From: Actinomycetes bacterium
GTDB taxonomy: Bacteria; Actinomycetota; Actinomycetes; S36-B12
Direction: 5' to 3'
Assembly (NCBI GenBank): GCA_014190275.1
Contig: BJGE01000018.1
Coordinates: forward strand, 1 to 35,301
DNA: 35,301 nucleotides
Both the position numbers and the translations under genes were made by a program. Under the pieces are notes generated by a model. That model searched no databases and was not told the DNA's origin. It was given only the letters and a program-made list of their open reading frames with translations. Of this stretch, positions 34,652 through 35,301 are shown one piece after another (position 1 is the first letter of the stretch; every line of letters begins with the position of its first letter).

Positions 34652-35134
34652 CTAGGAAGCTAGGACCTCGTCGAGGATCGCCTCGGCATTGTCCTCATTA
34701 GTCTTCTCGGCAAGGGCTAGCTCGCTCACCAGAATCTGCCGGGCTTTGGCCAGCATGCGCTTCTCGCCGGCGGACAACCCACGCTCACGCTCCCGGCGCC
34801 AAAGATCACGGACCACCTCGGCGACCTTGATGACATCGCCGGAGGCGAGTTTCTCGAGATTGGCTTTGTAGCGGCGCGACCAATTGGTCGGTTCTTCGGT
34901 GTATGGCTGGCGCAGCACGTTAAAAACTCGCTCGAGACCCTCGGCGTTCACGACATCGCGGACACCGACTAAGTCAACGTTGTCGGAGGGAACTCGAACG
35001 GTCAAATCACCCTGAGCCACCCGCAGCACGAGGTACTCACGGTCTTCGCCTTTAACTGTCCGGATCTCAACAGCCTCAATGAGTGCCGCCCCGTGATGTG
35101 GATAGACGACCGTGTCACCGACGTTGAAAGCCAT
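34652..35134 (-). CDS. carD: CarD-family RNA-polymerase-binding transcription regulator
   Basis: 160 residues. The N-terminal RNAP-interaction domain [23 protein letters not shown] is nearly that of mycobacterial CarD. The conserved tryptophan is Trp85 in [18 protein letters not shown]. The C-terminal helical domain binds the upstream edge of the promoter bubble. CarD stabilises open complexes at rRNA and other promoters. A hairpin with a T-run ends 4 nt before the ATG, and the 3' arm of that hairpin contains the likely ribosome site AGGGG. Confidence 0.95.
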
Positions 35135-35138
35135 ATGG

Positions 35139-35161
35139 AAAAACCCCTCTCGAAGGGGCTT
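35139..35161 (-). terminator. Terminator-like hairpin directly before the carD start codon
   Basis: On the minus strand AAGCCCCT pairs with AGGGGTTT (one G-T pair) around a 5-nt loop and is followed by a run of five T, CCAT and then the ATG. It has the form of an intrinsic terminator but lies in the leader of carD. It also contains the Shine-Dalgarno AGGGG, so it could limit carD by attenuation or by hiding the ribosome site. Confidence 0.55.
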
Positions 35162-35170
35162 AGAATACCA
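35162..35170 (-). promoter_or_regulatory. Possible extended -10 of carD
   Basis: TGGTATTCT fits an extended -10 (TG-N-TATTCT). A TTTGGG about 16 nt upstream is a weak -35. Normal spacing would place the RNA start inside the 5' arm of the hairpin at 35139-35161. Confidence 0.4.
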
Positions 35171-35197
35171 CGCTCACAGCGGCCCCAAATCCTCCGC

Positions 35198-35203
35198 TAC
35201 CCT
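35198..35203 (+). promoter_or_regulatory. -10 box of the divergent lipoprotein gene
   Basis: TACCCT ends 7 nt before GTG 35211, with no Shine-Dalgarno, so the mRNA is probably leaderless. Confidence 0.4.
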
Positions 35204-35210
35204 CCTGCCT

Positions 35211-35301
35211 GTGACCTCATCTCCGCGCCAAGCACGCGCCACCCGCCCCGCCCTTGCCATAGCGACCATCGCGGTCGCACTGACTGCCACGCTAAGTGGC
35301 T
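35211..35301 (+). CDS. N-terminus of a lipoprotein, LpqE-like by position (cut by window end)
   Basis: GTG followed by a translation with basic residues (RQARATRP) and a hydrophobic run ALAIATIAVALTATLSG. The next codon begins with T, consistent with the lipobox cysteine. In mycobacteria the gene divergent from carD is the lipoprotein LpqE, so this is probably its counterpart. Only 30 codons are present, so the family cannot be confirmed. Confidence 0.6.
   Translation, partial: MTSSPRQARATRPALAIATIAVALTATLSG

Follow-up and report, generated by a model that had tools for sequence, protein, structure and literature searches.

The terminator-like hairpin ahead of carD in an actinomycete: probably a compact promoter and translation-start module with its start inside the stem

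The window, the whole 35,301-nt stretch of actinomycete DNA analyzed here, carries a carD gene near its end. The 160-aa product, encoded on the minus strand from 35134 to 34652, matched the Pfam domains CarD_C (2e-38) and CarD_TRCF_RID (2.6e-15). Read 5' to 3', the leader consists of TGGTATTCT, AAGCCCCTTC, GAGAGGGG, TTTTT and CCAT, followed by the ATG at 35134. The features of the region are as follows.

35162-35170, minus strand: extended -10 element TGGTATTCT of the carD promoter, recognized from the TGnTAnnnT lying 8-12 nt ahead of the Shine-Dalgarno sequence (SD) in the leaders of relatives
35152-35161, minus strand: -10-to-SD spacer AAGCCCCTTC, comprising the discriminator and the expected start region according to the leader comparison
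35161-35153, minus strand: 5' arm of the stem, made of spacer bases
35144-35151, minus strand: SD GAGAGGGG, aligned with the position of GGAAAGGGG in relatives
35149-35144, minus strand: core of the 3' arm, made of SD bases
35139-35143, minus strand: five-T run, the SD-to-ATG spacer; the T tract is not kept outside the genus
34652-35134, minus strand: carD coding sequence, 160 aa, identified by its Pfam domains
35198-35203, plus strand: TACCCT, putative -10 of the divergent gene (GTG at 35211), proposed from sequence

The hairpin AAGCCCCTT-CGA-GAGGGGTTT runs from 35161 to 35141 on the minus strand, with arms at 35161-35153 and 35149-35141 closing on the loop CGA. These exact coordinates bore out a preliminary description of the locus, in which a stem with a five-T tail ended 4 nt before the carD ATG. 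The RNA fold was computed at -11.4 kcal/mol, with a z score of only -1.14, and 28 of 200 shuffles were equally stable. A scan of 19.3 kb for terminator-like patterns returned 22 sites, the carD hairpin included, against 17.3 +/- 3.3 expected from shuffles. As a terminator-like pattern, therefore, the hairpin showed no excess over chance. Compared with other genes of its own genome, it was somewhat unusual. Within 435 kb, the last 25 nt folded equally stably in 11 of 277 SD-led genes (4%), and a terminator-like stem plus T run occurred in the last 40 nt of 2 of the 277, carD counted in both cases; gene starts in these sets, and in the pyrimidine-run control set described below, were crude guesses. 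An Rfam search up to E 10 gave a single match at E 4.8, which is chance level and far under the gathering score. The open literature, with most subscription papers lying outside the search, yielded neither a mapped carD start nor a carD leader hairpin.

Comparison of carD leaders revealed a shared plan of TGnTAnnnT, 8-12 nt, an SD of the type GAAAGGGG, a short spacer and the ATG. Of the 76 family leaders, 75 contained this -10/SD module, the sole miss being a contig end; other families of the same order had it in 18 of 24 leaders. It was also present in 77 of 80 named carD loci, which were mostly Streptomyces and in some cases came from the same genomes as unnamed ones, so that the leader sets overlap. 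The class sample gave 19 of 19; these genomes were hand-picked, mostly one per family, from the 193 that gave a match among 197. The regular expression for the module was composed after the leaders had been inspected. Among the controls it matched a single gene of 277, which was carD, and 5 of 10,070 random 60-mers. The strict 27-nt pattern TGnTAnnnT-N10-GARAGGGG gave 14 matches in 34 genomes, all directly upstream of carD by coordinates and one of them in the window's genome, at carD; the reversed pattern gave 0 matches in the same 34 genomes. Judged from these leader sequences, conservation of the carD -10/SD module extends throughout the class samples analyzed. Because the leaders share this plan, the 3' arm of the hairpin can be read as the SD, the T run as the SD-to-ATG spacer and the 5' arm as the start region. 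That the stem holds the carD ribosome site, as had been proposed beforehand, was thus confirmed, the 3' arm being the conserved SD.

Some leaders and records departed from the common type. Three members of family f6 of the order (G047, G051 and G055) kept the extended -10, but had a longer and different -10-to-SD stretch and CAAAGGATC in place of GAAAGGGG. G039 of the same family was a looser case, with the extended -10 kept and CAAAAGGAC replacing GAAAGGGG. The record titles of two metagenome-assembled genomes, Bifidobacterium breve and Rubrivirga sp. (L005 and L008), appear wrong; their carD genes are 95% and 92% identical to that of the window and have leaders of the family type. One genome, G091, had two carD matches with identical scores (C5:93757-94236 and C8:43463-43942), either a duplication or an assembly duplicate.

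The only conserved -10 candidate in the leader lies at 35170-35162. Since the preferred start is 7 bp past the -10, according to the part of PMC5730371 consulted, the carD start is expected at about 35155, the 7th base. The computed fold depended sharply on the start base. It amounted to -11.0 to -9.5 kcal/mol when the RNA began at the 1st to 3rd base, -8.0 at the 4th, -5.4 at the 5th and -2.7 at the 6th, and from the 7th base onward only -1.6 kcal/mol remained of the initial value of about -11. This series agrees with the earlier suggestion that RNA made from the likely -10 would begin inside the stem, and that the choice of start would decide whether the hairpin is included. The computed accessibility of the SD, however, was nearly flat across start bases (0.17 to about 0.23), because in RNAs that begin later the SD pairs with bases further downstream.

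We consider it probable, though well short of certain, that the hairpin is carD's compact promoter and translation-start module, with the start most likely inside the stem and most messages free of the hairpin. The core of the locus would consist of the extended -10 (TGnTAnnnT), 8-12 nt, a strong SD and the ATG. RNA polymerase would start 7-8 nt past the -10, at about 35155-35154, within the so-called 5' arm. The resulting carD mRNA would have a leader of about 21 nt, led by the SD and lacking most of the hairpin. The stem-loop would then be a by-product of a purine SD set behind a pyrimidine-rich start region and followed by a T-rich SD-to-ATG spacer, and the full hairpin would presumably have no regulatory role.

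The full stem and T run were not conserved. A simple terminator rule was passed by 10 of 99 carD leaders, in 3 genera and with that of the window included, and failed by the other 89. Ten genomes of the genus were searched; 3 had no carD match, and the 7 with a match gave six distinct leaders. Among these, none of the 9 pairs of the 9-bp stem had changed on both sides: 3 never varied, 3 varied on one side and 3 only broke, so that 6 of 9 varied or broke, and the SD was kept while the 5' arm varied. In 3 of the 7 carD-bearing members (G003, G006 and G009) the full stem was weak or broken, at only -4.4 to -5.3 kcal/mol. Covariation swap tests were marginal or negative, with p 0.055 within the genus, 0.18 family-wide, a median of 0.56 for one leader per genus, and 0.91 in other families. 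One of eight genera tested singly, g10, gave p 0.009, which we did not count as support, and the rest ranged from 0.07 to 1.0. When spacers were shuffled, the mean z was -0.60 over 14 family genera (p 0.043) compared with -0.23 in other families (p 0.36); this analysis kept 91 of 100 leaders, and G009, lost to the regular expression, was re-added by hand for the swap tests. Strong stems occurred in several members of other genera, for example G061, G083 and G103, and leaders of genera g3, g9, g12 and g13 folded no better than their shuffles. According to the preliminary description, a single start inside the stem with no sequence conservation would speak against a switch at this site; the loss of conservation is largely what we see, and the inside start is predicted from the -10.

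The 5' arm nevertheless contains one feature that counts against reading the locus as a plain module. Bases 7-9 past the -10, a triplet chosen after inspection, consisted entirely of pyrimidines in 48 of the 58 distinct leaders of the family and in 3 of 47 outside it, the outside set comprising 7 of 24 leaders, all 19 class leaders, same-order leaders passing the regular expression and those Streptomycetaceae that contained one SD string. Bases 7 and 8 were both pyrimidine in 55 of the 58. Counted by the majority of leaders in each group, this held for 13 of 14 family genera and, outside the family, for 15 of 34 groups (p 0.003 by Fisher's test, post hoc). The family-specific triplet is complementary to the SD and occupies the place of the expected start base, and pyrimidines at these preferred start places are unusual for a start site. 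Measured at genus level, the pyrimidine run varied less in its distance to the SD (sd 0.53) than in its distance to the -10 (sd 1.06; r 0.89). A purine run directly preceded by at least 3 pyrimidines was seen in the family in 58 of 65 leaders, in other same-order families in 8 of 24, and among control genes in 48 of 174. Together with the spacer-shuffle tendency, the run gives a hint of selection for SD pairing, and shared ancestry may lie behind part of both signals.

These signals bear on start-site-gated masking of the SD, in which early starts (bases 2-5 past the -10) would carry a 5'-terminal hairpin hiding the SD and later starts would not. The ratio of early to late starts could be set by the pool of the initiating nucleotide or by the effect of CarD on the open complex, which would tune CarD. 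A family-specific, SD-complementary triplet that tracks the SD, family hairpins that outdo their spacer shuffles, the strong stems of other genera and the steep dependence of the fold on the start base all fit such gating. Set against them are the swap tests, the four genera that fold no better than shuffles, the nearly constant SD accessibility and, in the window, a preferred 7th-base start that already lacks the hairpin. We hold masking by start choice to be a live yet minority reading, and rather unlikely. A bolder version, that the CarD level throughout the family is set by where polymerase starts, with the triplet acting as an anti-SD, early starts SD-masked and poorly translated, and late starts SD-free, strikes us as more doubtful again. 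If it were true, CarD, and through it rRNA synthesis, would be coupled to nucleotide pools or to open-complex scrunching.

An operator seems very improbable. The inverted repeat could work as DNA, serving a repressor or CarD autoregulation, in that a short palindrome overlaps the start region and, in the part of PMC8820732 consulted, Rhodobacter CarD represses its own promoter via the extended -10 and adjacent spacer. The 5' half of the repeat, however, is not preserved even within the genus, and the 3' half is accounted for by the SD. That the carD leader holds an intrinsic terminator or attenuator deserves hardly any weight. Its 5-9 bp stem and T run do satisfy the simple rule, in the window as in the few other leaders noted above, but most leaders fail it, the number of such sites in the scan was close to expectation, and the predicted start falls within the stem. 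Like an intrinsic terminator, the locus has a short G+C stem and then five T; unlike one, its stem begins at the expected start and its T run is the non-conserved spacer between SD and ATG. Terminator-type attenuation of carD, one of the two roles put forward in the preliminary description, was accordingly not sustained: stem and T tract are not conserved together, and the preferred start removes the hairpin.

The upstream genes of relatives pointed in the same direction. The statement that no upstream gene reads into carD was correct for the window, where the neighbor is divergent (GTG at 35211), but at least 4 of the 7 genus members with a carD match have a gene of the same orientation that ends some 84 nt upstream. 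In G001, G003, G008 and G009 a same-direction frame ends in TAG ahead of the carD promoter, and an ORF scan found the frame in L084, L087 and L089. A separate terminator-like GCAGG/CCTGC hairpin with a T run precedes the carD promoter in G003, G006, G008 and G009; it has one changed base and is weaker in G009, and G001 has an altered form. The SD stem is not performing upstream-gene termination in these relatives. The letters of the original observation were right and the terminator reading is not supported; what lies here is probably an ordinary promoter/SD module plus a lineage-specific pyrimidine run. A compact promoter with an SD behind it can pass for a terminator, and recognizing this averts a false riboregulator call. 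A lineage-specific start-site oddity is left at the global regulator carD.

In enteric bacteria, a choice between start sites that responds to nucleotides controls an SD-holding hairpin in the leaders of pyrC and pyrD. The carD leader resembles them in having pyrimidines at the preferred start base and an SD-holding 5'-end hairpin only in the longer RNA. It differs in that the hairpin is already gone with the preferred start at the 7th base, the window offers no obvious purine alternative close by (after the 3rd base the next purine is the 11th), nothing ties carD to pyrimidine pools, and the pairing is not kept by compensatory change in the swap tests or the genus stem. A parallel to the module itself is found in mycobacteria, outside which the present organism falls. 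In the part of PMC8820732 consulted, the carD promoters of 91 mycobacterial species have a conserved extended -10 with CG in front, likewise a CG-TGnTAnnnT just upstream of carD; the SD spacing, the family pyrimidine triplet and the hairpin are unmentioned in that paper's section on transcriptional regulation.

We also noted several features around the locus. Among members of the genus, L085, L087, L088 and L089 contain a near-perfect inverted repeat, TTGGGGTG-TGATC-CACCCCAA (-12.7 kcal/mol as RNA), around the carD -35 region and past the terminator-like hairpin, which may be an operator. In the window, TACCCT lies 7 nt ahead of the GTG of the divergent gene (35198-35213, plus strand), whose transcript probably has no leader or almost none. 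The start of this lipoprotein-like gene (window 35190-35301) occurs twice in the assembly at 97% identity, and the second copy (L002, G000:C37:3361-3472) adjoins an amidohydrolase-like frame and a RegX3/PhoB-like response regulator, both named by eye. The window's contig ends at the duplicated stretch, which suggests a strain variant or an assembly branch.
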